Positions 4,018 through 23,921 of a stretch of DNA of 31,766 nucleotides are shown here, in pieces. Both the position numbers and the translations under genes were made by a program. Source of the DNA: a virus. The stretch spans positions 1-31,766 of the IMG/VR virus record IMGVR_UViG_3300013103_000034; one strand, given 5' to 3'. Each line of letters opens with the position of its first letter. Position 1 is the stretch's first letter. The notes beneath the pieces are model-generated. The model saw only the letters and a program-made list of their open reading frames with translations, was not told where the DNA came from and ran no database searches.

Positions 4018-5871
4018 TTAAAAATTCACACTATTTAGTATGTCTTCTTTTAAGGTTTTTGTTAATGCTGATTTAGTTCGATTAACTCTACCTTGAACTG
4101 CTTGAGTTAATAAAGTCTGAACTCTTTCTTTATACTCTCTCAAGAATGTAGAATATAATTTTTTCTTAGCTTCCATTTGTTTTTCAATAGCTTCTAATCT
4201 TTTTTTAGTTTCAGGTGGAAGGTTCTTTCTTTTTCCAAGAGCTTTTGCTTTCTTTGCAGCCGCTGCGTATTTATCGGCAGTAACTCCATAAATTGCACTA
4301 TGTGGAATATTTGTAATTCCTTTGTGTCCACCAGACTTATCAAAGTCTTGTTTAAAGGTTTTGTTTAAAAGTGCTACTACTTCATTGGGTTTATCAAAAC
4401 CTCTTTTCTTTAATTCTGCAACAGTAAACATTTCGTCTTTAGCCATTGTCATAGCTTTCTTTCCAAGAGTAACTAAATCAATCTCTTCTGGTTCGAACTT
4501 TTTACCTTTAGCTTCTGCTGCTTTTTTAAACTTAGCGTAATAATCAGGTCTCATTGACATCTGCCAAAACTTCCAGAAATCTCTAATTTGTGCTGCAATT
4601 TTTGGATCTTCAAACGAAAGATATCTATTTCCTTTCATATCTTTTTGAACAGCAACGTTTTCGGTTTTTCTAAGAATACCGGGAGTATCTTTCTGAACTT
4701 CATTCATTAATTTCTTCCAACCTGGAATGATTAATTTCTTTTGTTCTTCTTTAGACATTGCTTTCCACTTGTCTTTACCAGCTTTTTTCTCAGCTGCTTT
4801 ACTTGAAACATTCCAAATTCTTGATTTTTCTTGTCTTGAAATTGGTTTGAATTTATCTTTTACGTCCCAAGGTGGCATATCAGCATCACCTGGATCTACT
4901 GATTTAAGTTCTGTTTTTCCATCATCATCAATATCAAGATTTTTCTTAACCTGTGATGTTCTATTTCTCAGTCCAAGTTCAGCTTCGGTAGGAGCTTCAC
5001 CTCTACCAGTTTCTTTGCCTTTTCTAAGCCTAAAGTTTTCGCCTGTTTTGTCTTTGTCGATTGCGATTTGCATTTGTTTAGGAGCAGTTTTATTAAAACT
5101 TTCAATTGCGGCCCAGTCTATTTCACCGGATGGTTTACCTTCATAAGCTTTAAGTAATTCAACTTGTTTTTTCTGAAGATCAACATGTTTCATAGTTTCT
5201 TTATAAATGTTTAAAACAGTTGGATGTTTAATTGCTTTTTGAATAATTGATTGAACAGCACCAGGATTTTTAGTTTTAGCACTTCTCATTAATTGATTTA
5301 CAATAGATGATGTGATAATAGCTAATCTTGTTTTTGCGTTCTGTGATCCATCTTTCTTTCCAAGCTCTTTCTGTAGGTAAATATTGGTGGAAACATTGTC
5401 TCCAAATTTTGCAGAGTCAACAGCAGTAATCGCTTTAAGGTCTGTGTTGTTCATAAACCCTCTAGCCATTTTACTTGAAATGTGCATTGCGTCTGAGCCA
5501 AAACTAGAGTCAAAGTTTTTTCCGGTAGAACTTTTTCTATCAGATGCATGATGATCTGATTGAATATCTATTTTCTTATCTGCGCCTTCCGCGTCAATGA
5601 ATCTATCAAAGTCAACCACAACATTAATTTGTCCAGGTCTCTTTTTCAACTTCTTCATTTGAGTTTTTTCATCATCTCTATCATGAAGTAATACGGTTTC
5701 TATTTTATCAACACCCTGTTTTTTTAACTGCATACCAATAGCAATCGCTGACATAAGTCCATCAAAATCATCATGGTGTAAAATTTTTGCTGATTTGGTT
5801 CCTTTTGGAACTCTAACCCCAGATTCTAGTAATAATATTTGCTCTTGATCAAGGATGCTTTTAAAGTCCAT
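4018..5871 (-). CDS. DHH-family phosphoesterase with a head-targeting-like leader
   Basis: A 617-residue protein. Residues 32-38 read HHDDFDG, residues 84-89 VVVDFD, and residues 105-108 SDHH. These are the metal-binding motifs of the DHH superfamily (RecJ, NrnA/pApA phosphodiesterase, pyrophosphatases), usually binding two Mn ions. A GGHKGITN segment at 514-521 resembles the GGH motif of the DHHA1 substrate-binding domain, but lies unusually far away, after about 400 residues of Lys/Glu-rich sequence. The first 16 residues end LLLE before Ser, like T4 prohead protease sites. It is the last gene of a leftward operon starting at 6970 and ends at a strong terminator. An exonuclease or (oligo/cyclic) nucleotide hydrolase is likely; the substrate cannot be told from sequence. 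Confidence 0.75.
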   Translation of the reverse strand: MDFKSILDQEQILLLESGVRVPKGTKSAKILHHDDFDGLMSAIAIGMQLKKQGVDKIETVLLHDRDDEKTQMKKLKKRPGQINVVVDFDRFIDAEGADKKIDIQSDHHASDRKSSTGKNFDSSFGSDAMHISSKMARGFMNNTDLKAITAVDSAKFGDNVSTNIYLQKELGKKDGSQNAKTRLAIITSSIVNQLMRSAKTKNPGAVQSIIQKAIKHPTVLNIYKETMKHVDLQKKQVELLKAYEGKPSGEIDWAAIESFNKTAPKQMQIAIDKDKTGENFRLRKGKETGRGEAPTEAELGLRNRTSQVKKNLDIDDDGKTELKSVDPGDADMPPWDVKDKFKPISRQEKSRIWNVSSKAAEKKAGKDKWKAMSKEEQKKLIIPGWKKLMNEVQKDTPGILRKTENVAVQKDMKGNRYLSFEDPKIAAQIRDFWKFWQMSMRPDYYAKFKKAAEAKGKKFEPEEIDLVTLGKKAMTMAKDEMFTVAELKKRGFDKPNEVVALLNKTFKQDFDKSGGHKGITNIPHSAIYGVTADKYAAAAKKAKALGKRKNLPPETKKRLEAIEKQMEAKKKLYSTFLREYKERVQTLLTQAVQGRVNRTKSALTKTLKEDILNSVNF

Positions 5872-5872
5872 T

Positions 5873-6088
5873 TTATTTATCCTTCTTCTCTAAGAGTTTA
5901 AGCAGAGTTTCAAAAGGCATATCAGTTTTAGCAATAACTCTTGTTCTACCATCTTCTAGCTTAATTGAAATAGAACCTTTAGGGTCTATTCTAATCATCG
6001 TATTTATTTCAGTTGGTTTTGCCACAGTTTTAAACTTTAGCTTATCTCTAACCAATTGTTTGAAATTAACCTTCGGTTTCTTCGCCAT
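5873..6088 (-). CDS. small basic protein, unknown function (71 aa)
   Basis: I chose the ATG at 6088 (MAKKPKVNFKQL) because an AAGGA site lies about 9 nt upstream; the frame is also open to earlier ATGs at 6094, 6097 and 6115, inside the preceding gene. The protein is basic, with an even strand-like middle (MIRIDPKGSISIKLEDG) and a helical Lys/Leu-rich end. No family recognised. It overlaps the 3' end of the gene at 6066 by about 20 nt and lies one base from the DHH gene, so the genes are likely coupled. Confidence 0.6.
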   Translation of the reverse strand: MAKKPKVNFKQLVRDKLKFKTVAKPTEINTMIRIDPKGSISIKLEDGRTRVIAKTDMPFETLLKLLEKKDK

Positions 6089-6440
6089 CGTCATCATCCT
6101 TTTCAACTTTAACAATAGTTATTTTAGCCTCTTCGCTAAAGTTCTTTTTGATTTCTGATTCTACTATAGCTAGTTTTTCCATAGCAATTTTATATAGTTT
6201 GGTTTTATTAACATCTTTTTGAGCTTCACTATCTTCAGGGTTAATATTACATCCCATTCCAATTCTGGATCTTATTCCAAGACCTGATTCAGCGTCTCTT
6301 TTTATCCATTGAAGTTCTCGTAATAAAACACCGAAAGCTCCAATTAATCTTGCTTCTGCGTTCATAGTTTTTACTTGACTAATTTCAGATTCCTTAAGCT
6401 GTAATCCTGAGTTCTGTTTCATTTCATTAAGTATACTCAT
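6066..6440 (-). CDS. acidic-tailed protein, unknown function (124 aa)
   Basis: The ATG at 6440 is preferred over the one at 6446, because the GGAG site sits directly against the earlier ATG and 6 nt from this one. The protein is mostly helical and ends with a strongly acidic tail (KDDDDGEETEG). No domain recognised. It is in the leftward operon between the 68-aa gene and the basic 71-aa gene. The acidic tail next to basic neighbours could suggest protein pairing, which is speculation. Confidence 0.6.
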   Translation of the reverse strand: MSILNEMKQNSGLQLKESEISQVKTMNAEARLIGAFGVLLRELQWIKRDAESGLGIRSRIGMGCNINPEDSEAQKDVNKTKLYKIAMEKLAIVESEIKKNFSEEAKITIVKVEKDDDDGEETEG

Positions 6441-6449
6441 GCACATCTC

Positions 6450-6656
6450 CTATCCAGTAACCTTTAGATTAAGGTTCATTAATTTTCTCATAGTATCTTC
6501 ATCTACATCATACATTTCTGCAAAACCATCAACTTCAGTATAATCAAAATCACTAATCATATCATTTATGAAACTTATATATTTTGGTTTAAGTTTCATA
6601 AATTCATCGTTTCCAACTTTTGACTTTTCTTGCATTTCTGTTATTAGTTTATTCAT
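6450..6656 (-). CDS. small acidic protein, unknown function (68 aa)
   Basis: The ATG at 6656 overlaps the stop of the upstream gene by one base (TAATG), so coupling is likely. The middle is acidic (ISDFDYTEVDGFAEMYDVDED) and the rest is helical. No family recognised. It belongs to the leftward operon 6970 to 4018. Confidence 0.6.
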   Translation of the reverse strand: MNKLITEMQEKSKVGNDEFMKLKPKYISFINDMISDFDYTEVDGFAEMYDVDEDTMRKLMNLNLKVTG

Positions 6657-6970
6657 TAAAACACCATTTCTTTGTTTTTATCGTCTATGTCTTGATCTTC
6701 ACTATCAACTTTTACTCTGATTTGAATTAAAGGAAGGATTCCATATTCTTCTGTCTTATGAAACTTACCAGTTTGTCTGACATCAGTTCTGGATTGCATC
6801 CCAATCCAATCTTCAAATCTCGAATAATCTTTAAGGGATTTCTCAAGAACATAGCGTTTTCCCTCGCCGTCTTTTGCAACAACTACAAGGCCGTTCTTAC
6901 CGTGTCCTTTAGAGAACCTGACGAGTTTTCCTGTCTGAGTTGTTTTATTTACAAATTCGTTTAAGGTCAT
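6656..6970 (-). CDS. small basic/beta protein, unknown function (104 aa)
   Basis: The start is uncertain. The frame is open to a TTG at 7036, but the ATG at 6970 (MTLNEFVNKTTQTG) gives the more ordinary N-terminus. A perfect late motif ends only 4 nt before that ATG and there is no clear Shine-Dalgarno site, so either the mRNA is leaderless or translation starts further upstream on another transcript. The protein has a GHGKNGLVVVAKDGEGKR stretch suggesting beta structure and is followed by an acidic C-terminus. First gene of the leftward operon that ends with the DHH gene. Function unknown. Confidence 0.55.
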   Translation of the reverse strand: MTLNEFVNKTTQTGKLVRFSKGHGKNGLVVVAKDGEGKRYVLEKSLKDYSRFEDWIGMQSRTDVRQTGKFHKTEEYGILPLIQIRVKVDSEDQDIDDKNKEMVF

Positions 6971-6974
6971 ATAT

Positions 6975-6984
6975 TTATCTTTAC
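6975..6984 (-). promoter_or_regulatory. late-type promoter motif GTAAAGATAA, unusually close to ATG
   Basis: Perfect motif copy on the minus strand, but only 4 nt from the ATG at 6970, where other copies sit 15-35 nt away. It would drive the 6970-4018 operon. Confidence 0.5.
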
Positions 6985-7012
6985 CTATGATTTTTAGTAT
7001 AACGCAAACAAG

Positions 7013-7101
7013 GCAATAAATTGCTCTCCAAACCAACAGGCAATATTTTGCCTGTTAATAATAAGCAACTTAGTAGTAGCTACTAAATGGCAATTTATTG
7101 C
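7013..7101. repeat. cluster of three GCAA-N4-TTGC palindromes plus a 12-nt palindrome
   Basis: GCAATAAATTGC at 7013-7024; a 9-bp hairpin AACAGGCAA-TATT-TTGCCTGTT at 7035-7056; TAGTAGCTACTA at 7074-7085; GCAATTTATTGC at 7090-7101. They fill the gap between two leftward genes and include the last codons of the gene at 7095. They may act as a terminator or processing site for that gene, or as binding sites. Confidence 0.55.
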
Positions 7102-7874
7102 TCTTTTTCGGTCTTGTTAGAAACTTTATCAAGACTTTCTAAAGCAAGAGCAGTATCAGCAATAAGTTTATTTTTTCTACCTTCTTTTTTTAATCTCTGA
7201 ATTAATTTAGTTGAAATAAGTCCACCAGTAACTGCACCACCTACACCAACAGTTTTCAGTAAGTCTTTATTAGTTGCTTTTATATTTTGGTCATTAGCAA
7301 AATTTGCAATACCTTTAATTCCTCTACCTAAAGCTCTATCAACTCCAAGATTACCAGTATCAGTAATTGCAGAATCAGGAACTCTACTATTTTTTAGGTT
7401 TGCTACTCTTGCGCCGATATTTGATTCAGCTCCTGCAAGTGCACCAGATGCCTGTAGTGATTGTAGTCCAAAAATTCCAGCAATAAGAATTGCTGCAATT
7501 ACTGCAACTCCACCAGCTACTGCGAGTGCTCGTTTCGTAGAATCTTTTTTTGCGATTTTAATTAATTTTCTAAACTGAACTTCTGCTAATTTATATTTAG
7601 CTTTCACCTCACCTTTTTCAGAACCTTTAGCTTTTTTAAATTCATTTTCTAAAATTTCAAAAGTATTTGCTACTTTAATTGCTTCATCATAAAGTGGTTT
7701 GAGTTCCTTTGCGGTTTTCATATCGCCTTTTTTCAAAAGCTTTTCTCTTTTTTGGTTTATGTATTTTGCTAATCTTTTAATCTTAGAACTATTTTTAAAG
7801 AATACAATTCCTTCAGAGATGTATTCAACTTCATCCACTCCAGCTATATCTCTGATTTCTTCGTATAAATTCAT
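7095..7874 (-). CDS. predicted internal head protein with a membrane-like segment (259 aa)
   Basis: The N-terminus (MNLYEEIRDIAGVDEVEYISE before Gly) resembles a capsid-targeting leader with a T4-type prohead cleavage site after Glu21. Next come a basic, helical region (30-115), a hydrophobic glycine/alanine/isoleucine segment at about 116-138 long enough to cross a membrane, a Gly/Ala/Asn-rich region, and a second shorter glycine-rich hydrophobic stretch at about 208-222. The ATG at 7874 has a GGAAG site and a perfect late motif 27 nt upstream. No family recognised. A packaged protein that reaches the host membrane at injection is one idea; a structural membrane-associated protein is another. 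Confidence 0.6.
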   Translation of the reverse strand: MNLYEEIRDIAGVDEVEYISEGIVFFKNSSKIKRLAKYINQKREKLLKKGDMKTAKELKPLYDEAIKVANTFEILENEFKKAKGSEKGEVKAKYKLAEVQFRKLIKIAKKDSTKRALAVAGGVAVIAAILIAGIFGLQSLQASGALAGAESNIGARVANLKNSRVPDSAITDTGNLGVDRALGRGIKGIANFANDQNIKATNKDLLKTVGVGGAVTGGLISTKLIQRLKKEGRKNKLIADTALALESLDKVSNKTEKEQ

Positions 7875-7901
7875 ATTTCACTTCCATATATTAGGTTACT
7901 A

Positions 7902-7911
7902 TTATCTTTAC
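7902..7911 (-). promoter_or_regulatory. late-type promoter motif GTAAAGATAA
   Basis: Perfect copy on the minus strand, 27 nt before the ATG at 7874; divergent from the 7980 gene. Confidence 0.6.
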
Positions 7912-7934
7912 TTTTGCCAAAATAGAAAAACATT

Positions 7935-7944
7935 GTTAAGATAT
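7935..7944 (+). promoter_or_regulatory. possible late-type motif GTTAAGATAT
   Basis: A two-mismatch form of the late motif, 35 nt before the ATG at 7980 and followed by AT-rich sequence and an AAGGAG site. Confidence 0.35.
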
Positions 7945-7979
7945 GTCATATATATAAAAGTATATAAGGAGAATTGTAA

Positions 7980-8834
7980 ATGGCAGAAGAAAAGCATGCT
8001 CCTCCAAAGGCACCTAAACTTGATTTAAGTAAAGTTCAGAATGTTCCATCCGGAGAGCGTAAAAAGAAAAAAGGTAAGTTTAATTTCACTGAAGCAGAAA
8101 TTACTCCACTTCCTTCAAGGGGAGTTCTCTACAAGAATGTAACAGCAGATGTAGATGTTCTTAATGGACAAATTCAAATGTATCCAATGACTGTAAAAGA
8201 TGAAGAAATTCTTTCTACAAGTAGATTCCTTAAAACAGGAGCTGCTACAAGAATGGTTATTGATAATTGTATTGCATCAGATATTGATGCAAGAGATATA
8301 CTTCTTTATGATAGTAACTATCTGTTATTTTTCCTGAGAGGTATTTCATATGGAAATGATTATAATTTTAAATTAAAGTGTGGTAATTCATCTTGCGGCA
8401 TGGAATTTGAACATACTGTAAAAATAGATGAATTAAAATTCGAAGAACTTCCAGAAGGTACAAAAGAACCTTTTGTAGTAACTCTTCCTAAGTGTGGATA
8501 CAAGGTGACTTTTGTTTTACCTCGCTTAGCACATTCAGAAGAAATTTACAATAGAAACAGAAATAGAAAGAAATCAACGACTTCTTCAGATCAGAGACTT
8601 GTTGATAATTTAATTGTAACTACAATCACAATTACTGATCCTGATGGGACTGAAGTTCCTGCTGGTGACTGGGAAGAGTTTTATGAATCTTTAATTGGAA
8701 TGGACAGAGCAGAACTAAAAGAAAAGGCAGATTTCTCAACTGGTGTTGATACTCTGGAGGGTGTTTCATGTCCATATTGTGAAACTGATTTCTCAGGTTC
8801 TATTCCAATAGGGGTAGAGTTTTTTCGGTTTTAA
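7980..8834 (+). CDS. gp26-like baseplate/tail-assembly protein (284 aa, zero-frame product)
   Basis: After a basic N-terminus, residues 43-51 (PLPSRGVLY) and the following domain resemble the T4-type baseplate hub assembly protein gp26 family. C134 and C139, then C264 and C267 (CPYC), form two cysteine pairs that could hold one zinc ion. In T4 the relative is needed to assemble the baseplate hub. An AAGGAG site precedes the ATG and a late-type motif lies further up. The zero frame stops at 8834, but a conserved-looking reading frame continues in +1, so a longer frameshifted product is likely (see 8824-9015). The position resembles that of tail-assembly chaperone genes that use frameshifting. 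Confidence 0.65.
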   Translation: MAEEKHAPPKAPKLDLSKVQNVPSGERKKKKGKFNFTEAEITPLPSRGVLYKNVTADVDVLNGQIQMYPMTVKDEEILSTSRFLKTGAATRMVIDNCIASDIDARDILLYDSNYLLFFLRGISYGNDYNFKLKCGNSSCGMEFEHTVKIDELKFEELPEGTKEPFVVTLPKCGYKVTFVLPRLAHSEEIYNRNRNRKKSTTSSDQRLVDNLIVTTITITDPDGTEVPAGDWEEFYESLIGMDRAELKEKADFSTGVDTLEGVSCPYCETDFSGSIPIGVEFFRF

Positions 8835-9015
8835 TGAAGCGAATATAAATCAGATACAAGAGAGTATTTTTTATTTAGTTAAGTGGGGGTTCACTTATTC
8901 CGAAATAAAAAATATGGAAATCCCTGAATATAATAAATATATTCAGATGCTTAATCAATACTACAAAGATAAGAAAGCTGCGGCAGATAAAGCTGCTGGC
9001 AAAAAAGGGAGTTAA
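8824..9015 (+). CDS. frameshift extension of the gp26-like protein (+1 or -2)
   Basis: A +1-frame stretch follows the gp26-like gene with no ATG, GTG or TTG in its first 27 codons. The zero frame reads GAG TTT TTT CGG TTT TAA. If tRNA-Phe slips from TTT (8823-8825) to TTC (8824-8826), translation continues GGT TTT AAT GAA for 62 more residues. The result is a 344-aa product with F-T-Y-S-E-I-K-N-M-E-I-P-E-Y near the middle of the extension. That pattern resembles the C-terminal parts of frameshifted tail-assembly chaperones. The TAA at 9013-9015 lies in the loop of the terminator. An independent short gene starting at ATG 8911 is the alternative. Confidence 0.55.
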   Translation, partial: FGFNEANINQIQESIFYLVKWGFTYSEIKNMEIPEYNKYIQMLNQYYKDKKAAADKAAGKKGS

Positions 9016-9030
9016 GGCTCCCTTTTTTGC
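8999..9030 (+). terminator. Rho-independent terminator
   Basis: A 13-bp stem GCAAAAAAGGGAG / CTCCCTTTTTTGC with loop TTAAGG, directly after the gp26-like region and directly before the next promoter. The A and T tracts would also allow some activity in the other direction. Confidence 0.85.
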
Positions 9031-9059
9031 TTGACAATAAAAGAATAATTTGGTAATAT
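9031..9059 (+). promoter_or_regulatory. early promoter cassette 1 (TTGACA-17-TAATAT)
   Basis: TTGACAATAAAAGAATAA cassette, -35 at 9031-9036 and -10 TAATAT at 9054-9059. The ATG at 9067 is 7 nt past the -10 box, so the mRNA would be nearly leaderless. Confidence 0.75.
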
Positions 9060-9066
9060 ACCTTAT

Positions 9067-9246
9067 ATGTTTGGACGAAAAGAAAAGAAAACAATCAACA
9101 TTCTCGTAAAAGCCTCTTGGGGTTTGAGAAAAGCTTACGAAGCAGATTTGATTGGTTTTAGTGTTTATAAAGATTTTTTTGACTACGCAGAAGATGAGAT
9201 AGATGAATTAAAAAAGACAATAAAAAGCTTGACAATAAAAGAATAA
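9067..9246 (+). CDS. small early protein, unknown function (59 aa)
   Basis: ATG directly after promoter cassette 1 with no Shine-Dalgarno site. The product (MFGRKEKKTINILVKA...) is basic at the start and acidic later (YAEDEIDELKK). The last codons (S-L-T-I-K-E-stop) are themselves the next copy of the TTGACA cassette, so the 3' end of the gene is a promoter sequence. No family recognised. Probably an early accessory or host-takeover protein, by position and promoter only. Confidence 0.55.
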   Translation: MFGRKEKKTINILVKASWGLRKAYEADLIGFSVYKDFFDYAEDEIDELKKTIKSLTIKE

Positions 9247-9251
9247 AGAGG
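9229..9251 (+). promoter_or_regulatory. degenerate copy of the early promoter cassette (no -10)
   Basis: TTGACAATAAAAGAATAA is present, but the -10 position (9252-9257) reads GAAAAA, so promoter activity is doubtful. It lies before the ATG at 9257, which has a GAGGG ribosome binding site instead. Confidence 0.5.
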
Positions 9252-9256
9252 GAAAA

Positions 9257-9554: not shown

Positions 9555-9560
9555 TAATTA

Positions 9561-11775: not shown

Positions 11776-12079
11776 GAGTTTAAGAGCATTAGGAGAAATG
11801 GTAGTAATTAGGTTTGATCCAATACCAATGCAAAATAAAGTAACAAAAGCTGGAATTGAGATAGTTGGTTCAGCTGATGGACAAGTTTCTTATGATATAG
11901 TTATAGATACTATTGGAACTGATGTTAAAGATGATTGTGGTTTTAAGGTTGGAGATTGTGTTGTTGTAAATCAGCATGATGTAATGAAAATGGATGTTGA
12001 AAATCCTGATGATATTATGACTCCAATTACAAAAGGAATCACAAGAGCTAGTTCTATCTGGGCAGTTTACGACGCATAA
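11765..12079 (+). CDS. 31: GroES / T4 gp31-like co-chaperonin
   Basis: A 104-residue protein with the layout of a GroES fold. The N-terminal strands (RALGEMVVIRFDPI) are followed by a mobile-loop-like segment (NKVTKAGIEIVG, about 24-35), then V-I-D-T-I-G-T-D-V, G-D-C-V-V-V and a C-terminal strand (SSIWAVYDA). T4 gp31 replaces GroES so that GroEL can fold the major capsid protein; the same role is inferred. The ATG lies inside the end of uvsX with a GGAG site. GroES-like proteins diverge strongly in sequence, so the call rests on pattern and size. Confidence 0.75.
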   Translation: MAVKSLRALGEMVVIRFDPIPMQNKVTKAGIEIVGSADGQVSYDIVIDTIGTDVKDDCGFKVGDCVVVNQHDVMKMDVENPDDIMTPITKGITRASSIWAVYDA

Positions 12080-12081
12080 TA

Positions 12082-12414
12082 ATGTATGAATACAAAGTAA
12101 TTAAAGTAATTAAAGTTTATGATGGTGACACAATTACCCTCGAAATCGACTTAGGATTTGGAATAAGTAAAATTGATAGTTTTAGACTTGCAAATCTAAA
12201 TACCCCTGAAGTCAGAGGGGTGGAACGGCCAGAAGGTTTAATAGCAAGAGATTATTTAAGAGAAAGATTAGATACTTCTCTTGATGTTAAAGTTAAAACC
12301 ATAAAAGATAAACAGGGAAAATATGGAAGATATATCGCTGAGTTGTTTATTGATGGAATTAATATTAATAACGAGCTTATTGAAATTGGATTAGCTGAAG
12401 CGGTGCAGTATTAA
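12082..12414 (+). CDS. staphylococcal-nuclease-like (thermonuclease) protein
   Basis: A 110-residue single domain. DGDT at 14-17, R35, E43 (TPE) and R83 (GKYGRY) match the metal-binding and catalytic Asp, Arg35, Glu43 and Arg87 of the staphylococcal nuclease family. That family cuts DNA or RNA with calcium. There is no signal peptide, so the protein would act inside the host cell. The residue at the position of Asp40 is Asn, which may alter metal binding. It sits between the GroES-like gene and the UvsW-like gene with a TAATG overlap, so it is part of the replication/recombination operon. Host DNA or RNA breakdown, or processing of recombination intermediates, are possible roles. Confidence 0.85.
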   Translation: MYEYKVIKVIKVYDGDTITLEIDLGFGISKIDSFRLANLNTPEVRGVERPEGLIARDYLRERLDTSLDVKVKTIKDKQGKYGRYIAELFIDGININNELIEIGLAEAVQY

Positions 12415-13766
12415 TGAAAATATTAATCACCGATGCGTATATTGCTATCGGTGATATGACAAAAGAACAGATGGTTGATATTAAATCCATCTTTACTTTT
12501 AAAGACATGTCAAAAGCAATGACAGCAAATGGTTTTAATAAAAGAAAAGTTAAAACCATTTGTTTTGCCAAGCAAAAAGGAAAAGCACTTGTTTTAAGAA
12601 CTGGTTTCTTAAAAGAACTCTTTAACTTTATAAAAGATGAAAGTATCCCAGTTGAAAGCATACAAGATAAGAGAACTAAATTATTTAAAACAAAACTCTC
12701 AGATGATGAACTGAGAACATACTTCAATCCAAACTTTAAATATGTGTCTCATCAAATCAGAGCAATAAAAGCATTATTGAAAACTAATGTGGGAATTATA
12801 AAAGCCCCTACCTCTGCAGGTAAAACAGAAATAATAATTGCTCTTCTTAAAATTTCAAAACTTCCAACATTAATTTTAGTTGATAGTGTCTCATTAGCAA
12901 CTCAAACCCTTAAAAGGTTTCATGACGCTGATATTGATTGTGGCATTTGCCACGGAAAAGCAAAAATTAATGGATATCATACAATAGCTACAATAGGTTC
13001 ATATAAAAAACTCGGAGATTTAACCAAATATAAAATGGTTATAGTTGATGAGTGTCATATCGTTGGATCAGCTAGGTTTCAAGAATTCTTTGAAACAACT
13101 AATTATCCTTATAGATATGGGTTCTCAGCCACTCCTGATGGAAATGACAAATATCGTTATGCAACAATCAGACAACATATAGGTGGAGAGATTTCAGAAA
13201 TCTTTACGGAAGAGTTGATAGAAAATAAAGTAATGGTTGCACCAAAAATAAAATTCATTACAACAGATTGTCCTCCAACCCCTTCTTGGGACGCAGCTTA
13301 TGAAAAGTGTATTACAAAGAACGAAGCTAGAAACAAAAAAATAGTAGAAGTTGCTTTAGAACAAGATGTTCCTACACTTATTTTGTATAAAATTATTGAA
13401 CACGGAAAAATCCTCGGTGATAAAATACCGAACTCAATTGTCTTGTCTGGAACTGATAGCGATAAGGTTCGAGAAGATGCTATTGCTAAATTCAAATCTG
13501 GTGAAATACAATATCTTATTGCTTCTAATATATTCAAACAAGGTATTTCAATTAATAACATTGAAACTCTCATTAACGCATCAGGTGGAAAATCTAAAAT
13601 AGAAGTCCTACAAAAAATAGGACGTGCTCTAAGATTACATAAAGGAAAAGATTACGCATTAGTCTATGATTTTATGGATAAAGGAAATAGATATACAGAA
13701 AGGCATTCCCTTCAACGTGAAAACTTATATAGAAAAACTGGTTTTGATGACATAGAAGTTATGTAA
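12414..13766 (+). CDS. uvsW: UvsW-like superfamily 2 helicase
   Basis: A 450-residue protein with an N-terminal domain of about 110 residues, then helicase motif I APTSAGKTE (131-139), motif II DECH (212-215), motif III SAT (238-240) and motif VI QKIGRALRLHKGK (400-412). T4 UvsW unwinds branched DNA and R-loops and switches origin use to recombination-dependent replication. The order uvsX, groES-like, nuclease, uvsW fits that pathway. It starts with a TAATG overlap. Its TAA stop lies within the late-type motif for the next gene. It is shorter than T4 UvsW (587), mostly at the N-terminal side. Confidence 0.88.
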   Translation: MKILITDAYIAIGDMTKEQMVDIKSIFTFKDMSKAMTANGFNKRKVKTICFAKQKGKALVLRTGFLKELFNFIKDESIPVESIQDKRTKLFKTKLSDDELRTYFNPNFKYVSHQIRAIKALLKTNVGIIKAPTSAGKTEIIIALLKISKLPTLILVDSVSLATQTLKRFHDADIDCGICHGKAKINGYHTIATIGSYKKLGDLTKYKMVIVDECHIVGSARFQEFFETTNYPYRYGFSATPDGNDKYRYATIRQHIGGEISEIFTEELIENKVMVAPKIKFITTDCPPTPSWDAAYEKCITKNEARNKKIVEVALEQDVPTLILYKIIEHGKILGDKIPNSIVLSGTDSDKVREDAIAKFKSGEIQYLIASNIFKQGISINNIETLINASGGKSKIEVLQKIGRALRLHKGKDYALVYDFMDKGNRYTERHSLQRENLYRKTGFDDIEVM

Positions 13767-13772
13767 AGATAA
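13763..13772 (+). promoter_or_regulatory. late-type promoter motif GTAAAGATAA
   Basis: Perfect copy overlapping the stop codon of the uvsW-like gene, 25 nt before the ATG at 13798. Confidence 0.6.
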
Positions 13773-13797
13773 TTATAACTCATCGAAAGGAACTATA

Positions 13798-15765
13798 ATG
13801 CCTAAATTTGAAGATATTCTATTCACAGAATTAAAGACAGAAGATATAAAAGACGTAAATTTAGCAGAAGGTATTTTTCCAATGAATCCTCTTCTTGCTT
13901 TTTATACGTTTAAAAGAAACAGCTTAAAGAACCTCAAAAATATTAAGGGTGCTACTATAGGCAAGGTTAAAGAAAAAGGTAAGAAAACTAAAGCCGAACT
14001 AAAGAAAGGTGGAGAGAAACTAAGATCTACTTTAGATGCTGGTGGCGGAAAAGATCCCGACTCAACAGTTTATAGATTAACCAGAAAACAAGAAGAAGTT
14101 CTTTCAAAACTTCATGAGAAACATGGACCTAAATTTATTCAAGAACTTATGGATTTCAGAACTGGAGTTCTTGCTCCTTATCAAGTAATTAAAAGAACAG
14201 TTAAGAAAAATAAAATGCTTACTTCAACAGAAACTCTTGGTATGACAAAAGAACAATTTAAATCCGCTGTTGAGTCAGGACGAAGAAAGATTGAAGCTCG
14301 CGGAAATCGTTTTGATAAATTTGATGATTTAGAAGCAAATATTGAAAAACAAGAAAGATCAATCAAAGCACTTGAACAAGTAAGAGCTGGTATTAAAACA
14401 AATAAACAAATTCCTCCTACTATCCTTGAAAGAATACTTAAAGAGTATGATTTAGGGAAGAAAGAATTTGAATCCTATTCAATGAACGATTTAAAGAAAG
14501 CCTATTATGAAATAACAAAAAATGTTGATAGAATGGGTGAGATTGGTGCAGATGACGAAGGTGATGCATTAACTAAAGGACAAGAAATAAATAAACTTGT
14601 CCAGAAAAATATTAGACTGAGAAAAGGTATAGTTGCTAAAGATGACGCAGCGGAACGAATGAAGCTCAGATCAGCTGAATCTGAAGATGATTTAAAAGAA
14701 GATTATTTATATGAATACAAGATTGACTTAACTAAGAATAAAAATTTTAGATTGAGTAATGGTGGATTCAATTCTGCTCTTGGACTTTACTTTCTTAGAA
14801 AAGAAATAATGAGACAACTCAAACCAGAAAACAGAGATAGTATTTATAGACAAACTTATATGAAGATAGTTGATCAACTTATTGATGACGCTAAAAAAAG
14901 AAAAGCTGCTGCGGCAGCTAAAATTGTAAAAAACAAAGGTTCTGTTGAGTTTAACGAAAAAGAAAGAAAAATCTGGGAACTCAGACCATCCGTAAAAACC
15001 CAGTCTGGTGATATTAAAGACTACGTTCAGAAGCTTAAAGAAGAAGATTTCTTTAACCCTAAGTATTTTAAGAAATCTGATAAATTAACAGCTGCTGAGA
15101 AGAAAGTAGAGGCTGGTATTAAGAAGTTTGAGAGAAGTCTTAAAAAGAGAATCTCGCCGGAAGAGTATGCAGAGTTAAAAAAGTATAGACTAATAAATAA
15201 TCTTATTACAGTTGGAGAAATGAAGTCTCCAGATAAACTATTTAAATCTCAAGAAGAACTTAAATCAGAAATAAAAACAGATAAGAGAGAGTTCTTATCC
15301 GATGGTGAGTTTGAAAGAAAAATGAGAGAAATTTTAACTTCTGAATATGACTCTATTACAGACCTTAATAAAGCTAAGAAAGAAGCTCAAGAACTTATGG
15401 ATACTAAGAAAGAACAAGGTGATGATGACATTGCTGATGAGTTAGCTGGAGTATTAACTAAGATTAAAAATAGAAAGAATATTAAATCCGGAAAAATTGT
15501 TGGAAGTGAACTTGAATTAACAGACGTTGATCTTATTGATGCTGGATTAATTGAAAAAACTATTAAGACAATGTTGAAGAAAAACTACGAAGATGACGAT
15601 GAACTCAAAAGAGATCAAATCAGAATTAAGAGTATGGTTAAGAAGTATAAAGAAGAAGGTGGTGCAGACGCCGAAAGAAACATGGAAGAAATTGACTTCC
15701 TATTCAAAAAACTTTCAAGAAAAACTGGAACTTCTTCTGCTATAGCTGACGACGGTAACAACTAA
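13798..15765 (+). CDS. predicted packaged internal head protein (655 aa)
   Basis: The N-terminus (MPKFEDILFTELK...NLAE before Gly25) looks like a capsid-targeting leader with a T4-type prohead cleavage site after Glu24. The rest is Lys/Glu-rich, strongly helical sequence with repeated charged heptads, suggesting long coiled coils; no catalytic motif or membrane segment is seen. It has its own late-type motif and a GAAAGG ribosome binding site. It heads a three-gene late unit (13798, 15777, 16549) that ends before the small RNA region. Function unknown; injection with the DNA is inferred from the leader. Confidence 0.65.
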   Translation: MPKFEDILFTELKTEDIKDVNLAEGIFPMNPLLAFYTFKRNSLKNLKNIKGATIGKVKEKGKKTKAELKKGGEKLRSTLDAGGGKDPDSTVYRLTRKQEEVLSKLHEKHGPKFIQELMDFRTGVLAPYQVIKRTVKKNKMLTSTETLGMTKEQFKSAVESGRRKIEARGNRFDKFDDLEANIEKQERSIKALEQVRAGIKTNKQIPPTILERILKEYDLGKKEFESYSMNDLKKAYYEITKNVDRMGEIGADDEGDALTKGQEINKLVQKNIRLRKGIVAKDDAAERMKLRSAESEDDLKEDYLYEYKIDLTKNKNFRLSNGGFNSALGLYFLRKEIMRQLKPENRDSIYRQTYMKIVDQLIDDAKKRKAAAAAKIVKNKGSVEFNEKERKIWELRPSVKTQSGDIKDYVQKLKEEDFFNPKYFKKSDKLTAAEKKVEAGIKKFERSLKKRISPEEYAELKKYRLINNLITVGEMKSPDKLFKSQEELKSEIKTDKREFLSDGEFERKMREILTSEYDSITDLNKAKKEAQELMDTKKEQGDDDIADELAGVLTKIKNRKNIKSGKIVGSELELTDVDLIDAGLIEKTIKTMLKKNYEDDDELKRDQIRIKSMVKKYKEEGGADAERNMEEIDFLFKKLSRKTGTSSAIADDGNN

Positions 15766-18563: not shown

Positions 18564-18588
18564 CAATAAAAGAATAATTGCATATAAT
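18560..18588 (+). promoter_or_regulatory. early promoter cassette (TTGACA-17-TATAAT)
   Basis: -35 at 18560-18565 containing the upstream gene's stop codon, -10 TATAAT at 18583-18588. Unlike most copies it is followed by a short leader with an AGGAG site. Confidence 0.85.
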
Positions 18589-18604
18589 AAAGTAGGAGAA
18601 AAAA

Positions 18605-18775
18605 ATGGACGAGATTACAAGATTAGAAGAAGCTATTGCGTTTGAGCAACAAAGGTTAGCTAATTTTATAGAAGAAGGTACAACTTCTTCCTCTGCGCTT
18701 CGTGATGTTTATTATGATATTATAAAAATGCAAGAAAAAATAAGGAGTCTTAGTGAAGGTATTGATAACGAGTGA
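18605..18775 (+). CDS. small early protein, unknown function (56 aa)
   Basis: ATG with a TAGGAG site 6 nt upstream, directly behind a promoter cassette. The protein (MDEITRLEEAIAFEQQRL...) is acidic and helical, possibly a coiled coil. It overlaps the GTG start of the gp47-like gene by 23 nt and carries that gene's AAGGAG site, so the two are coupled. Confidence 0.6.
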   Translation: MDEITRLEEAIAFEQQRLANFIEEGTTSSSALRDVYYDIIKMQEKIRSLSEGIDNE

Positions 18776-19730
18776 TTTACACATTCAATCAGGAATATAT
18801 ACAGACATTGGAATAGATTATATAGATTATCTATCGGAATACTGTAACGAATATGGGATAACAGACTTAATTATTGCTGGTGATATTTTTGAGAAATCAA
18901 GCAAGATTAATAATGATGCATTCATTCCATTGTTTTTTAAATTTATGGAGTTAAAGGAATCTGGTTTAAATATTACAATCGTATTAGGGAACCACGACAT
19001 TTACTCTGTTGACAATGATAGTTTAGTAGAAACGTTTGCTGTGTTTGGAAAAGTAATTAAGAATTTTGAACAAATTAAAATAGGTGGAAGGACAATAGAC
19101 TTTCTTCCTTATACTAAGGATGTTGATTTAGTCCCGAGTTCTGGAGATATTTTAATTACGCATCTTAGTATAGCAGATTTCTCTTTTGATAATAAGTTTC
19201 ACGTAAGTGAAAAAGCTGGAATGCCAAGAAAAATATTCGAAGGATACAACAAAGTATTCACAGGACATTTTCATAGACCACAAACCAAGGGAAACATTAT
19301 TTACATGGGTTCTCCATATCAAATGAACTTTGGCGAGATAGGACAAAGAAAAGGATTTGTTGTTTATGATTTAGAGTATGATGATTGGGAAAGAGTTTGG
19401 TATGAACAAGCTCCAATCTATAAGAAAATAACGGTTAATAATTTTCAAAACGAAGATGTAACTAATTGTTTTGTTCAAGTTGAAATAAAAGAAAAGATGG
19501 ATAATTACGTTCAATTAAAACACATTTTATATGAAAAAGGTGCTCTTATTGTATCTCCTAAATTTCTTGACTCCGAAGAAGAAATTACAGTTAATGAAGA
19601 AACGAAACTCGATATGAACTCTTCTGTTCCTGTAATGGTAAAAGAGTATATTCTTAATAGCATTGAGGCTACAGGAATTGACAATAAAGAGCTTGTTACA
19701 ATTTTTGATAAAGTGTTAGCAAGTATTTGA
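18753..19730 (+). CDS. 47: recombination nuclease subunit gp47 (SbcD/Mre11-like)
   Basis: A 325-residue calcineurin-like phosphoesterase. D8 and H10 (SDLH), GD at 43-44, GNHD at 79-82, ITH at 135-137 and GHFH at 171-174 are the two-metal site residues of the Mre11/SbcD family. It pairs with the SbcC/Rad50-like protein encoded downstream to resect DNA ends and make 3' tails for UvsX. The GTG start is set by AAGGAG 6 nt upstream. Its TGA stop is part of the next promoter's TTGACA. The length is close to T4 gp47 (339). Confidence 0.92.
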   Translation: MKVLITSDLHIQSGIYTDIGIDYIDYLSEYCNEYGITDLIIAGDIFEKSSKINNDAFIPLFFKFMELKESGLNITIVLGNHDIYSVDNDSLVETFAVFGKVIKNFEQIKIGGRTIDFLPYTKDVDLVPSSGDILITHLSIADFSFDNKFHVSEKAGMPRKIFEGYNKVFTGHFHRPQTKGNIIYMGSPYQMNFGEIGQRKGFVVYDLEYDDWERVWYEQAPIYKKITVNNFQNEDVTNCFVQVEIKEKMDNYVQLKHILYEKGALIVSPKFLDSEEEITVNEETKLDMNSSVPVMVKEYILNSIEATGIDNKELVTIFDKVLASI

Positions 19731-19755
19731 CAATAAAAGAATAATAAGTTATAAT
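19727..19755 (+). promoter_or_regulatory. early promoter cassette (TTGACA-17-TATAAT)
   Basis: -35 at 19727-19732 containing the gp47 stop, -10 TATAAT at 19750-19755, and the ATG 5 nt later at 19761, predicting a leaderless mRNA. Confidence 0.85.
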
Positions 19756-19760
19756 TAGAT

Positions 19761-19919
19761 ATGAAAACAACAAAAGGACGTTTGAAGTCCTTCCCAGTTA
19801 TATTTAGATACTTCTTAGAAGATACGATTATGATTAATCTAACGAAAGAGAAAGTAACAATTTTTTATGATGGGACTTACAAACAAACAAAAACAGGGCC
19901 AAGAGTTAAGAGGGGTTAA
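19761..19919 (+). CDS. small basic protein between gp47 and gp46 (52 aa)
   Basis: ATG 5 nt after the -10 box, with no ribosome binding site. The product (MKTTKGRLKSFPVIFRYF...) is basic with a beta-like middle and no recognised family. Its TAA overlaps the ATG of the gp46-like gene by one base, so it also couples that gene's translation. Its place between the two subunits of the nuclease complex resembles T4, where small genes such as 46.1 lie nearby, but no homology is claimed. Confidence 0.6.
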   Translation: MKTTKGRLKSFPVIFRYFLEDTIMINLTKEKVTIFYDGTYKQTKTGPRVKRG

Positions 19920-22093
19920 TGAAACTTCAATATGTAAAACTAAAAAACTTCAAGAGTTATCCAGACCAGGAAACAACTGTTGATTTGAGTTTTGACGGCA
20001 TCAAACTTTTAGTCGGAGAGAACGGTGATGGAAAATCAACCTTTTTCGATGCTATTATTTGGGCCATCTATGGAAAAAACAAGGACGGTGTTGATGGTGT
20101 TGTCAATCGCAAAACTAAAAAGGATTGTAAGGTTGAAGTTGGCTTTAAAGTTGGTTCGTCTAGCTATTCAATTGTTAGATATAGGAAGCACGAGACAAAT
20201 GGTAATAAACTATTATTCTTTAAGGGAACTAAAAATATTTCACAGCGAACAGCAGGAGCAACTCAAGAGCTTATTGATGGAATAATTGAGATACAATATA
20301 ATACAATGATATCATCTGTAGTATTATCATCTGAATTATATACATCGTTTCTTCGGTCTTCTCGCGCTGATAGATTAAAAACGTTTGAGTCTATTCTTTC
20401 TTTGAAAGAAATTACTTTATTCTACAATAAACTCAAGAAGTTAAAAGAACCGATTGATGAAAAAGTTAGTAAATTAAACTTAGATATTGATAAAACTTTT
20501 GTAGCTATTAAATCTCTATCTGATAATATAGATGAATATAAAGATGGTGTTAAAAAAACACTACTTGCTTTTAAATCCGAAAAGGAAGCCTTACAAGGTG
20601 AGGTATTTCAACTAACAAGCAAAATATCAGAATATGATAGTATTGATGTAGACAAAGAAATTAATAACAACGAAGCTTATGATATTATTATTAAGCGGAT
20701 AAAAGAAATCGATGAATTAATTCTAATTGATAAAGGGAAACTAACTGATATAAACAGTTTAGTTGCTCAACTTGAGGATTGTGAAGAACAGATAGATAAC
20801 TATCAACGAATTGATATTCAAAAAGAGCTTATTCAAAATAAAGAATATTCTGATATTAAAGCAAAAAACGAAAAGGTCAATACAGCAATTGTAAAACTCT
20901 CTGCTGGAATAGTTTTAACTGGACACCTTGATAAAAACATAAAAGCTTTTCAAGATAAAATTTGGAATTTAGAAAAAGAAATAAAGAACATTCAAGAACA
21001 TCTTGATACTTGTCCTACTTGTGGACAAGAAGTAGAAAGAGAATTAACGGAAAAACTAGTAGCAGATAAAAATATTGTTCTTGATGATGTAAAAGTAAGC
21101 CTTAAAAAAGAGAAAGAAACATTAGAAAATGATTTAATCAAAAATAAAGAGATAGATGATGCTATCAAGAAATTAAAAGGTATGGTATCTGAAGCAATTG
21201 AGCCTGTTCATAGTGTTGAAATATTGCATGCAATGAGTGGAAAGTTAAAGGATGAAAAAAATAGAAGTCTTCTTCTCAAAAAAGATATTGAAAACGCAGA
21301 AAGTAATAATAAAGAAATTGAAACAAGGCTATCAGCGTATAGAGCAGAAAAGAAAATTAATGTAGATAATAAGTCTGAGCCTGAATATCATACTATGTTC
21401 CTGAAAGATTTAAGGGAAAAAATTGTTCTTCTTAAAGATGAAGCTGAAGAGAAAAGACAGAATATTCTAACAATAGATGTTAAAGCTAAATCTTCGTATG
21501 ATAAAGGTTATATAGATAACACTCAGGTGACAATAAAAGAGTTAAAGAAAACATTAACAAAAACCGATAAGAAACTAAAAAAAGCTACTATTGAAAAAAA
21601 ACACTATGAAGCCTTATTAACTATTTTCTCAAATAAGGATAGTGGATTTAAAAAGTTCTTTATTAATAAGATGGTTAGTATTTTTAATGATAGGGTTAAT
21701 TTTTATCTTCCATTCTTTTTTGATGATGATGTTGAAGTTGATTTTGATAAGGACTTAAATGAAGTTATAAAGATAAATAAAGAGGAAGTAACGTTTGCAT
21801 CATTTAGTTCAGGACAAAAAACAAGGTTTGATATAGCTATATCATTCTCACTTTTCTTCATGGTAAAGATGTTCTTTTCATCAACTATAAATCTTTTAGT
21901 GTTTGATGAAATATTGGATATGAATTTAGACAAAAAGGGATTTAATTCTGTGTATGAGATTATAGAGAATTTAGGGGATTTCAATACAGTTTTTGTTGTA
22001 TCCCATCAAGAGTTTTATAAGGAGAAGTTTAATCATCATATTCATATAAAGCGTAATAGTAAAGGATTTAGTTATATTTACAACGAGGTGTAA
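19919..22093 (+). CDS. 46: recombination nuclease subunit gp46 (SbcC/Rad50-like)
   Basis: A 724-residue SMC-like ATPase. Walker A GENGDGKST (33-41) is followed by a long coiled-coil arm broken by the zinc hook CPTC (365-368). The second arm leads to the ABC signature SSGQ (630-633) and Walker B LLVFDE (659-664); the H-loop is in VVSHQE. It forms the ATPase and tether of the Mre11-Rad50-type complex with gp47. It is longer than T4 gp46 (about 560), mainly in the coiled coil. Start coupled to the small upstream gene (TAATG). The leaderless early promoter at 19727 drives both. Confidence 0.93.
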   Translation: MKLQYVKLKNFKSYPDQETTVDLSFDGIKLLVGENGDGKSTFFDAIIWAIYGKNKDGVDGVVNRKTKKDCKVEVGFKVGSSSYSIVRYRKHETNGNKLLFFKGTKNISQRTAGATQELIDGIIEIQYNTMISSVVLSSELYTSFLRSSRADRLKTFESILSLKEITLFYNKLKKLKEPIDEKVSKLNLDIDKTFVAIKSLSDNIDEYKDGVKKTLLAFKSEKEALQGEVFQLTSKISEYDSIDVDKEINNNEAYDIIIKRIKEIDELILIDKGKLTDINSLVAQLEDCEEQIDNYQRIDIQKELIQNKEYSDIKAKNEKVNTAIVKLSAGIVLTGHLDKNIKAFQDKIWNLEKEIKNIQEHLDTCPTCGQEVERELTEKLVADKNIVLDDVKVSLKKEKETLENDLIKNKEIDDAIKKLKGMVSEAIEPVHSVEILHAMSGKLKDEKNRSLLLKKDIENAESNNKEIETRLSAYRAEKKINVDNKSEPEYHTMFLKDLREKIVLLKDEAEEKRQNILTIDVKAKSSYDKGYIDNTQVTIKELKKTLTKTDKKLKKATIEKKHYEALLTIFSNKDSGFKKFFINKMVSIFNDRVNFYLPFFFDDDVEVDFDKDLNEVIKINKEEVTFASFSSGQKTRFDIAISFSLFFMVKMFFSSTINLLVFDEILDMNLDKKGFNSVYEIIENLGDFNTVFVVSHQEFYKEKFNHHIHIKRNSKGFSYIYNEV

Positions 22094-22094
22094 C

Positions 22095-22502
22095 ATGGAA
22101 AAACAAACTCCGCCAATGCAATTAATGGATGAAATTATAACAAAACATAATTTCATTGATGTAATGAAGAATACTTATGGTTTAGCAATTTTAACTAATG
22201 GATCTTTTGTTAAAATCTTAAATAATTTTGAAGGAATTTGTGAAACCTGGAAGCTCTTTAACGAAGCAATGGCTATGGATGATGTGGAAGCTCAACAAAG
22301 AATTCTCTTAGAAAATACTAGAGGTGGAATTATAGATACAGGAACTACAGTAATTGATATTCAAACAATAGCAACTATGTATCCTTTATATAGAATGACA
22401 CATGATAATGAAGAAGTAAAAAAAATAAATAAATTTAAAATGAATGAAATAGATAATTTTATTTACTGGGATCAAACGATGGGAGAAACAGAAGACGAAT
22501 AA
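22095..22502 (+). CDS. protein of unknown function downstream of gp46 (135 aa)
   Basis: ATG two bases after the gp46 stop, so the same transcript. The protein is acidic and mixed helix/strand; its C-terminus (DQTMGETEDE) is acidic. No family recognised. It ends at the bidirectional terminator 22502-22531. Confidence 0.65.
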   Translation: MEKQTPPMQLMDEIITKHNFIDVMKNTYGLAILTNGSFVKILNNFEGICETWKLFNEAMAMDDVEAQQRILLENTRGGIIDTGTTVIDIQTIATMYPLYRMTHDNEEVKKINKFKMNEIDNFIYWDQTMGETEDE

Positions 22503-22531
22503 AAAAAGACACTCAATTGAGTGTCTTTTTT
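22502..22531. terminator. bidirectional Rho-independent terminator, copy of 3980-4009
   Basis: The same 30-nt A6-GACACTC-AATT-GAGTGTC-T6 palindrome, again between two convergent genes (ends at 22502 and 22533). Confidence 0.9.
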
Positions 22532-22532
22532 G

Positions 22533-23921
22533 TTATTTTGCTTCTGATTGTCTTGGATATTTTTCAACTGGTATGTCTACTTTCGTAGGACTTTCACTTC
22601 CTCTCATTGTAGTTACATTTGGAGCTACTTTTCTTTTAACTAGTCGTCTTGCTTTATCAGCATCTGCTCTAGCTTTATCTCTTATTGCTTTTGCATCTGC
22701 AAGTATTTTAGCTTTTATTGCTGGATCGTCACTTTCTATAAATTCTTTTAGTCTTTTAGGTGCCCATTTTTTAATAATTGCGTCACTTACTTCTGATTTG
22801 ATTTTTGATTTTACTTTGTCTGTAGTTGATTTGATAATAGGTGCTGCAACTTTAGCACCTCGTTTAATTCCAGCTTCTGCAACTTTAGCTGCTGAACCTA
22901 GTTTTTGTTTTAAAATATTTGCTGTTCTTGATTGAGTGACTTTTTCAGTTCCTTTCTTTATAGCTGAAGCCGCTTCTTTAGCTCTTCCACCTATTCTTTC
23001 TATTACATTGTCCATTGATTTTAGTTGTGCTTTATTAGATGCTGCGTTTATAATTTGTTTTACTTGTCCTAGGTAATTTTGTGAGTTTGTTGTTGCTTTT
23101 AGTCTTGATGAGAAGTTTGAGAAGTTTGAATAACGTTGTTCTTCTTTTTTGATTGAGTTTATTTTTTTGTTGACCGCCTTTTCCATATCGGTGGCAACTT
23201 TTTTCATTTTCATTTTTTTAACATCATTAACTGCTTTTTCAGAAGCATCGTTAACTTTTTCTAACGCTGCAGCTAAAGCTTCTTCTGCTTGTTTAGCAAT
23301 GTTAGATGGACCTTTAGGGTCATCAGGATTTACTTTCTGAACCTTATTCATAGGTTTTGAAAGTCTCTGAGTTTCCTTACCTCTTTTAATTAAATCAGCG
23401 GTTTTTAAATCAAGTGCGTCAGATGTTTCTTTTTCGGCCTTAGGTGTTTCTTCCGTACTTTTAGGAGCCTCAGTTTCCGCTTTTGGAGCTTCAGATGTCT
23501 TAGGTGTTTCAGTAGGAGTTTCCTTCTTAGAAGTTTTTATAGATTTGATATAAGGTTTAGTTCCCTTTCTAACATTCTGAATAATAGGTAAATCGCCTAT
23601 TTTATCATCACCTTCTGGTGTAAGATTAAGACTATCAAGAATTTCTTTATCAGCTTTAGTTGGTTTTGAAGATAAAACATCAATCGCTAAAGCAAGGTTT
23701 CTATAATCTTCTGTGTTTGTGCTGACAACTTTCTCCATAGCTGTTTGTAGAAAGTCATCTTTAAGTTCTTTAGATGCTTTTTTAACTATATCAGCGGCTA
23801 AAGTTTTTGCAGCTTTGCTTGTTTTAAACGCTGCTCCGCTTTGACTGATCATATCATCAAACGAAACAGGAGTTGCAGCTTCGTCTATTTTGTTATTGTA
23901 AAATTCTTTAAAGGATACCAT
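22533..23921 (-). CDS. predicted packaged internal head protein (462 aa)
   Basis: The leader MVSFKEFYNNKIDE before Ala15 closely resembles T4 internal-protein leaders (MKTYQEFIAE before Ala), which direct proteins into the prohead and are removed by the prohead protease. The body is Lys/Ala/Glu-rich with a Pro/Thr/Glu repeat-like linker (about 135-165) and long helices. No catalytic motif seen. The ATG at 23921 has a GGAGA site and a perfect late motif 27 nt upstream. It ends at a strong terminator. Probably injected with the DNA, as T4 internal proteins are; what it does there is unknown. Confidence 0.7.
   Translation of the reverse strand: MVSFKEFYNNKIDEAATPVSFDDMISQSGAAFKTSKAAKTLAADIVKKASKELKDDFLQTAMEKVVSTNTEDYRNLALAIDVLSSKPTKADKEILDSLNLTPEGDDKIGDLPIIQNVRKGTKPYIKSIKTSKKETPTETPKTSEAPKAETEAPKSTEETPKAEKETSDALDLKTADLIKRGKETQRLSKPMNKVQKVNPDDPKGPSNIAKQAEEALAAALEKVNDASEKAVNDVKKMKMKKVATDMEKAVNKKINSIKKEEQRYSNFSNFSSRLKATTNSQNYLGQVKQIINAASNKAQLKSMDNVIERIGGRAKEAASAIKKGTEKVTQSRTANILKQKLGSAAKVAEAGIKRGAKVAAPIIKSTTDKVKSKIKSEVSDAIIKKWAPKRLKEFIESDDPAIKAKILADAKAIRDKARADADKARRLVKRKVAPNVTTMRGSESPTKVDIPVEKYPRQSEAK

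Follow-up and report, generated by a model that had tools for sequence, protein, structure and literature searches.

The window analysed here (G000, 31,766 bases) is a fragmentary virus record and, judged from its sequence, a piece of a T4-like myovirus genome distantly related to T4. Five of its genes encode proteins that start with a short leader ending in hydrophobic-x-Glu in front of Ala, Ser or Gly, and the best overall explanation is that these are very probably T4-type virion proteins, targeted to the head and processed by a gp21-type protease. The preliminary description of this DNA had listed four packaged proteins; their leaders are all in place and the reading frames are intact, but the number was too low, since a fifth leader gene (6066-6440) had been missed. 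The leader genes, with sizes in amino acids (aa), predicted isoelectric points (pI) and a hyphen for the predicted cut, are the following.

4018-5871, minus strand: DHH-type phosphoesterase of 617 aa with leader; predicted mature protein 601 aa, 67.7 kDa, pI 9.75
5824-5871, minus strand: leader of the DHH protein, MDFKSILDQEQILLLE, predicted cut before Ser17; [LI]xE-[SAT]G in 10 homologues
6066-6440, minus strand: fifth leader gene, 124 aa (126 aa from the ATG at 6446)
6390-6440, minus strand: leader of the 124-aa protein, MSILNEMKQNSGLQLKE, predicted cut before Ser (LKE-S); site in all five orthologues
7095-7874, minus strand: 259-aa leader protein; predicted mature protein 25.5 kDa, pI 10.1
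7812-7874, minus strand: leader of the 259-aa protein, MNLYEEIRDIAGVDEVEYISE, predicted cut before Gly22; E21-G22 invariant (9/9)
13798-15765, plus strand: 655-aa leader protein; predicted mature protein 72.7 kDa, pI 9.4
13798-13869, plus strand: leader of the 655-aa protein, MPKFEDILFTELKTEDIKDVNLAE, predicted cut before Gly25; [LIV]xE-G in eight orthologues
22533-23921, minus strand: Lys/Ala-rich leader protein of 462 aa; predicted mature protein 48.9 kDa, pI 9.8
23880-23921, minus strand: leader of the 462-aa protein, MVSFKEFYNNKIDE, predicted cut before Ala15; four homologues compared

The leaders are 14-24 aa long in the window and 8-36 aa among homologues; four of the five have a pI of 4.1-4.9 and the fifth of 6.0, while the mature proteins have a pI of 9.4-10.1 in four cases and of 4.9 in the 124-aa protein. 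The nearest relatives of the window are other metagenomic contigs, with core-gene proteins that are mostly 50-85% identical, namely G007 (201,184 bases, syntenic with the window), G002 (61,789 bases) and L002-L008; L009 is further removed.

Conservation of the cut sites

Each window protein was aligned with its orthologues, and every hydrophobic-x-Glu-Ala/Ser/Gly site was scored as kept or lost. The N-terminal sites are kept in 5/5 orthologues of the DHH protein, 5/5 of the 124-aa protein, 3/3 of the 259-aa protein, 8/8 of the 655-aa protein and 3/4 of the 462-aa protein, whereas just two of 18 control sites elsewhere in the window proteins are fully kept (mean fraction 0.30), and as far as the alignments can tell this conservation is the decisive evidence beyond chance. 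The middle residue of the site varies freely (L, T, N, K, S, A, V, P, D). The 124-aa family reads LNE-S, LNE-A or INE-S in all five orthologues, the 655-aa family [LIV]xE-G in each of the eight orthologues set beside the window protein, and the four homologues of the 462-aa protein INE-A, INE-A, LKE-A and LNE-N. The ten DHH homologues have leaders of 8-20 aa with unrelated sequences, including MDFKSILDQEQILLLE-S, MDFSDILKNAKEEKLNE-S, MKKIEESISLIAKELLLNE-S, MTIEKYLTE-S and MNFDYLTE-T, and all of them end in [LI]xE at the same conserved mature start. In the 259-aa family E21-G22 is likewise invariant in all nine homologues and paralogues, behind leaders of 15-36 aa and ahead of a conserved G[IL]xFFK-like stretch at the mature start. 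This pattern, a variable leader with a fixed boundary and fixed last three residues, is what would be expected of a targeting peptide that a protease removes.

The notion that each leader is just an ordinary helix at the N-terminus of a late protein, in which hydrophobic-x-Glu arises by chance from Glu-rich N-termini, draws on the enrichment of generic Glu motifs near the N-termini of G007 as well, but it is highly improbable, given that site conservation exceeds that of the controls, that leaders of variable length end at the same site, and that the non-head late proteins of the window (tail tube, hub and a 651-aa protein) have no conserved N-terminal site in their orthologue alignments.

Prohead protease and capsid proteins

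The gp21-like protease that the preliminary description had proposed to search for is present in relatives and absent from the 31.8-kb window fragment. The Peptidase_S77 protein of G007 (E 4.6e-21; PHROG 'head maturation protease', E 3.7e-46) has cyanophage gp21s as its best named relatives, S77/gp21 proteases are also encoded in L037-L039 and L047, and His85 and Ser140 of T4 gp21, which we take to be its proposed catalytic residues, are invariant in an alignment across five relatives. Furthermore, the major capsid protein Gp23 of G007 reads ...LLNEDELNE-APMTQSAVG..., where ELNE-A directly precedes the mature domain and is itself closely preceded by another LxE site; MAFFT sets T4 LTE65 opposite the first of the two. 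The capsid proteins of L037, L038 and L039 carry ELNE-AP, DINE-AP and ELNE-AP, and a second Gp23-like protein in G007 has LNE-A, as it does in G002, where it stands behind a late motif. In both Gp23-like proteins of G007 the LNE-A site lies at or near the expected place. Cleavage by a T4-type prohead protease and head loading, as first proposed, are thus supported by the protease of the lineage, the capsid sites, the conserved leader sites and the late motifs described below, and we regard both as very likely from this body of sequence data.

Frequency of the motif

The motif [LI]xE[AGS] occurs at residues 8-32 in six of the 38 window proteins against 1.7 expected from the remainder of the same proteins (P ~0.001), and these six are the five leader proteins and a 90-aa protein behind a TTGACA motif, in which the match looks like chance. 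T4, used as calibration, has 21 motif proteins against 11.7 expected, including IPI, IPII, IPIII, gp22, gp24 and gp68, and the bare motif is therefore informative but noisy. It should also be mentioned that the DNA end protector gp2 of T4 (L034; gene 2, 31061-31885, minus strand) starts MAIFQIINE-S and fits the rule of a leader plus cut site.

Late motifs and expression

Two classes of upstream motif are found, a TTGACA type ahead of replication and other non-structural genes, and GTAAAG[AG]TAA about 35 nucleotides (nt) before late genes. The late motif GTAAAGATAA lies at about this distance from three leader genes, and the late-type motifs claimed earlier are indeed there, with TAAAG[AG]TAA 34-36 nt upstream of the 259-, 655- and 462-aa genes; the 124-aa and DHH genes follow downstream in the same minus-strand late cluster as the 259-aa gene.

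7902-7910, minus strand: late motif TAAAGATAA upstream of the 259-aa gene, at the head of a minus-strand cluster extending as far as the DHH gene
6975-6983, minus strand: second late motif in the 259-aa-to-DHH cluster, 13 nt before a 104-aa gene; may be chance
13764-13772, plus strand: late motif TAAAGATAA ahead of the 655-aa gene; the orthologues in L002, L004, L005, L007 and G007 have it upstream too
23949-23957, minus strand: late motif TAAAGATAA ahead of the 462-aa gene; L004, L005 and G007 have it too

When the window is scored by transcription unit, five of the six motif-bearing proteins are late versus 8/37 of the others (p 0.007), and in G002 the association has a p of 0.01 for motifs directly upstream. 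In G007, GTAAAG[AG]TAA precedes several leader genes and a 649-aa protein (47611-49560) that reads as a putative tail sheath. By these motifs and the gene order, all five leader genes of the window would be expressed late. The canonical T4 late promoter TATAAATA was rejected as the promoter of this lineage, being found upstream of just six G007 genes. A small conserved protein encoded at 31203-31589 (plus strand) has a weak sigma-70-like match below the cut-off (TIGR02937, E 0.0018) and is a candidate late sigma factor that may read the GTAAAGATAA motif.

Several observations weigh against head loading and cleavage of the leader proteins. The protease gene is seen in relatives and not in the window fragment itself, the mature 124-aa protein is acidic, and the residue following the cut (P1') is not strict, since one 462-aa homologue reads LNE-N. 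Residues beyond the cut are also conserved (SG[IV]R in the DHH family), and part of the conservation could therefore be structural. In G007, with its noisy motif set, the association with late motifs is weak (p 0.047 directly upstream, 0.23 by transcription unit), and the bare cut-site motif is weakly enriched (23 against 16.5 expected), as are controls, for example [LI]xE with a different residue behind it, because the N-termini of G007 are rich in Glu. Counts alone are therefore weak there and the case is not rested on them; the plain G007 count was accordingly rejected as strong evidence. The finer motif [LI][NT]E[AGS], seen 11 times against 2.3 expected, was picked after the data had been seen and is therefore supportive only.

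The leader proteins and their possible functions

At E<=0.001 the four proteins named in the preliminary description have no Pfam or PHROG family and the 124-aa protein, scanned against Pfam only, no Pfam family, and a sequence-profile search of the PDB gave no matches. In the DHH protein, all catalytic motifs of the DHH superfamily (HxDxDG, D, DHH, D and GGH) are present; the invariant residues are H33, D35, D37, G38, D87, D106-H108, D152 and G514-H516, and HxDxDG, DHH, D152SA and GGH do not vary in six homologues, divergent ones included. The Pfam DHH profile matches the window protein with E 0.024 and its G007 homologue with E 9.4e-5, both under the curated cut-off, and among isolated phages there is one weak match, in a huge phage, and nothing else. 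A RecJ-like nuclease would be at least as likely as a cyclic-nucleotide phosphodiesterase, since the top Foldseek matches are all RecJ/Cdc45 (E 1e-3, from a low-confidence model with a predicted local distance difference test score, pLDDT, of 56).

The DHH protein might instead be a RecJ-like repair nuclease at work inside the cell, its conserved N-terminal ESGIR segment serving the structure and having nothing to do with packaging. In favour of this are the fold matches, the conservation of ESG and R20 along with the domain, and the INEE that the huge-phage homologue has at the matching place. However, the stretch leading up to the mature start varies in length and sequence, and still its last three residues are [LI]xE in all ten homologues of the lineage. 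The DHH gene also shares its late cluster with two other leader genes, and in contig L047 it directly follows the major capsid gene, an independent link to the head; an exclusively intracellular role is accordingly quite unlikely. In L005 the DHH protein (2102-3958, minus strand) has a second leader-like stretch near its C-terminus, INNIRKNSGMLNE-N, which looks like the result of a fusion with a leader-bearing gene, and in L042 (about 5980-6070) the DHH gene is broken by an in-frame stop near the first catalytic motif, the other homologues being intact.

The 259-aa protein has one strong hydrophobic segment (residues 117-135, hydropathy 2.66), and its family includes several leader-bearing paralogues in G007 and L041. 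The 655-aa protein is all-helical in a low-confidence AlphaFold2 model and has relatives in the window's own lineage alone, with none among isolated phages or in bacterial or archaeal genome assemblies. The set of leader genes differs between relatives, and G007 encodes further leader-bearing proteins (82313-83245, 84674-85336 and 180351-181814). At the level of short motifs, one of these three has an ADP-ribosyltransferase-like LYHKT start after LNE-G, one a HAD-like DIDDTL after LNE-G and one a zinc-protease-like HELTH after LNE-T; a Pfam scan of the other G007 leader proteins gave no clear domain, and no relative of a 310-aa G007 protein was found elsewhere. In the literature searched we found no published description of these cargo families, among them a leader-bearing DHH enzyme; the loading route is already known, and it is the cargoes that are new.

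Alternatively, the leader proteins might belong to the interior of the head or to its core and, although cut by the prohead protease, stay behind instead of being ejected, with a role in assembly like the fragments of T4 gp22, gp67 and gp68. The scaffold and capsid proteins do obey the same site rule, and the low-complexity, basic 462-aa protein could be a core protein. On the other hand, the DHH catalytic motifs are intact in divergent homologues and not needed for assembly, the cargo set varies among relatives, and the core proteins of G007 have many internal sites while the leader proteins mostly have few, all of which makes this alternative unlikely.

The preferred explanation, head loading followed by cleavage, would operate as follows. 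The phage would make at least five unrelated leader proteins late in infection, and the leader would act like a T4 capsid targeting sequence and draw the protein into the prohead core. A gp21-type (S77) protease would then cut on the C-terminal side of the hydrophobic-x-Glu that closes the leader, in front of Ala, Ser or Gly, and so free a mostly basic mature protein, which would remain beside the DNA in the head and later probably be ejected into the host. Since the leaders are of the T4 head-loading kind, delivery into the host with the DNA is the probable outcome, and by analogy with the internal proteins and Alt of T4, which serve as injected models (PMC9026906), we consider such ejection rather more plausible than its absence.

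As for what the delivered proteins might do, an anti-defence role of the leader proteins is speculation, and no cargo resembles T4 IPI (Pfam/PHROG at E<=0.001; Pfam only for the 124-aa protein). A defence-related role is doubtful even for the DHH protein, and it is at most a tentative suggestion that a DHH/RecJ-like phosphoesterase arrives from the phage head, along with membrane-segment and basic proteins, ahead of any phage gene expression and so disarms nucleotide-signal or nucleic-acid based defence at DNA entry. If true, shared leaders would let unrelated cargoes swap between relatives. Phage enzymes already present when the DNA enters are prime candidates for taking over the host early or for countering its defences, and the combination of leader, conserved cut site and late motif offers a sequence-only way to list the head-loaded proteins of uncultured T4-like phages, including phages for which no virion has been purified. 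The families that this approach marks here as probably delivered by the virion match nothing in Pfam or PHROG, and one of them is a DHH phosphoesterase.

Other features of the window and its relatives

The window furthermore encodes a tail tube protein, a baseplate hub protein, UvsX and, in pieces, DNA polymerase III alpha, and by reading of the list of open reading frames there appear to be UvsW-, gp46/47-, Dda- and ligase-like genes. Isolated T4-like phages are remote, UvsX being 26% identical to that of a cyanophage. DNA polymerase III alpha is encoded by two genes (24664-25953 and 28597-29672, plus strand), split at FERFLSDER / DIDTD and separated by genes for a Dda-like helicase and an HNH-like protein, and a similar split occurs in G002 and G007. 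The second part is itself split after ...SSGASGG by a group I intron (28851-29037, plus strand; Rfam RF00028, 60.5 bits against a cut-off of 50), and the polymerase gene of G007 has no intron at this point and an intein-like insertion further along. UvsX has 420 aa in the window, 654 aa in L030 / G007 (155705-157669) and 716 aa in G002 (11780-13930); the excess length in G007 and G002 looks like inteins, and the G007 terminase (74434-77415) likewise has an intein-like insert. Tandem paralogues in G007 (34575-36189, four genes) and L037 (18635-21066, seven genes) have the common N-terminus MK[KI]R.GFVSNSSSSSF, a shared leader of a different kind.

Comparison with known systems

The head protease of T4 cuts by the rule L/I-x-E behind leaders of 10-19 aa, and the internal proteins of T4 are basic (PMC9026906). 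The middle residue is free in T4 and in the window families alike, and the FIAE-A leader quoted for T4 in the preliminary description is the one with which IPII and IPIII start (MKTYQEFIAE-A), IPI having TITE-A. The window proteins resemble IPI, IPII and IPIII in having a short hydrophobic leader that carries aromatic or aliphatic residues at about positions 4 and 7 and closes with L/I-x-E in front of a small residue, in the basic mature protein and in the gp21-type protease of the lineage. They differ in that the mature proteins have no detected sequence relation to IPI, IPII or IPIII, no Pfam- or PHROG-based homology to these or to Alt being found at E<=0.001, in that the cargoes of the lineage are larger (107-631 aa) and include the DHH enzyme and the membrane-segment family, and in that several leaders have the motif MxLxEEIxxNxGxxLxE. 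Alt of T4, of about 76 kDa, is likewise a large head-carried enzyme cut at its N-terminus and similar in size to the DHH protein, but it is an ADP-ribosyltransferase, whereas the window enzyme is a DHH phosphoesterase.

The inner-body or ejection proteins of phiKZ and SPN3US are also many, loaded into the head and processed C-terminal to Glu, in phiKZ by the rule S/A-x-E (PMC9026906). The likeness thus lies in the many head-loaded proteins with a prohead protease cut after Glu, and the difference from phiKZ in the L/I/V-x-E that the window lineage uses, as T4 does. Finally, jumbo phages have DHH-superfamily phosphodiesterases for which a role against nucleotide-signal immunity has been proposed (PMC7824862). 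The window gene differs from these in its head-packaging leader and its position in the late cluster, and the DHH protein would therefore be a virion-delivered enzyme.

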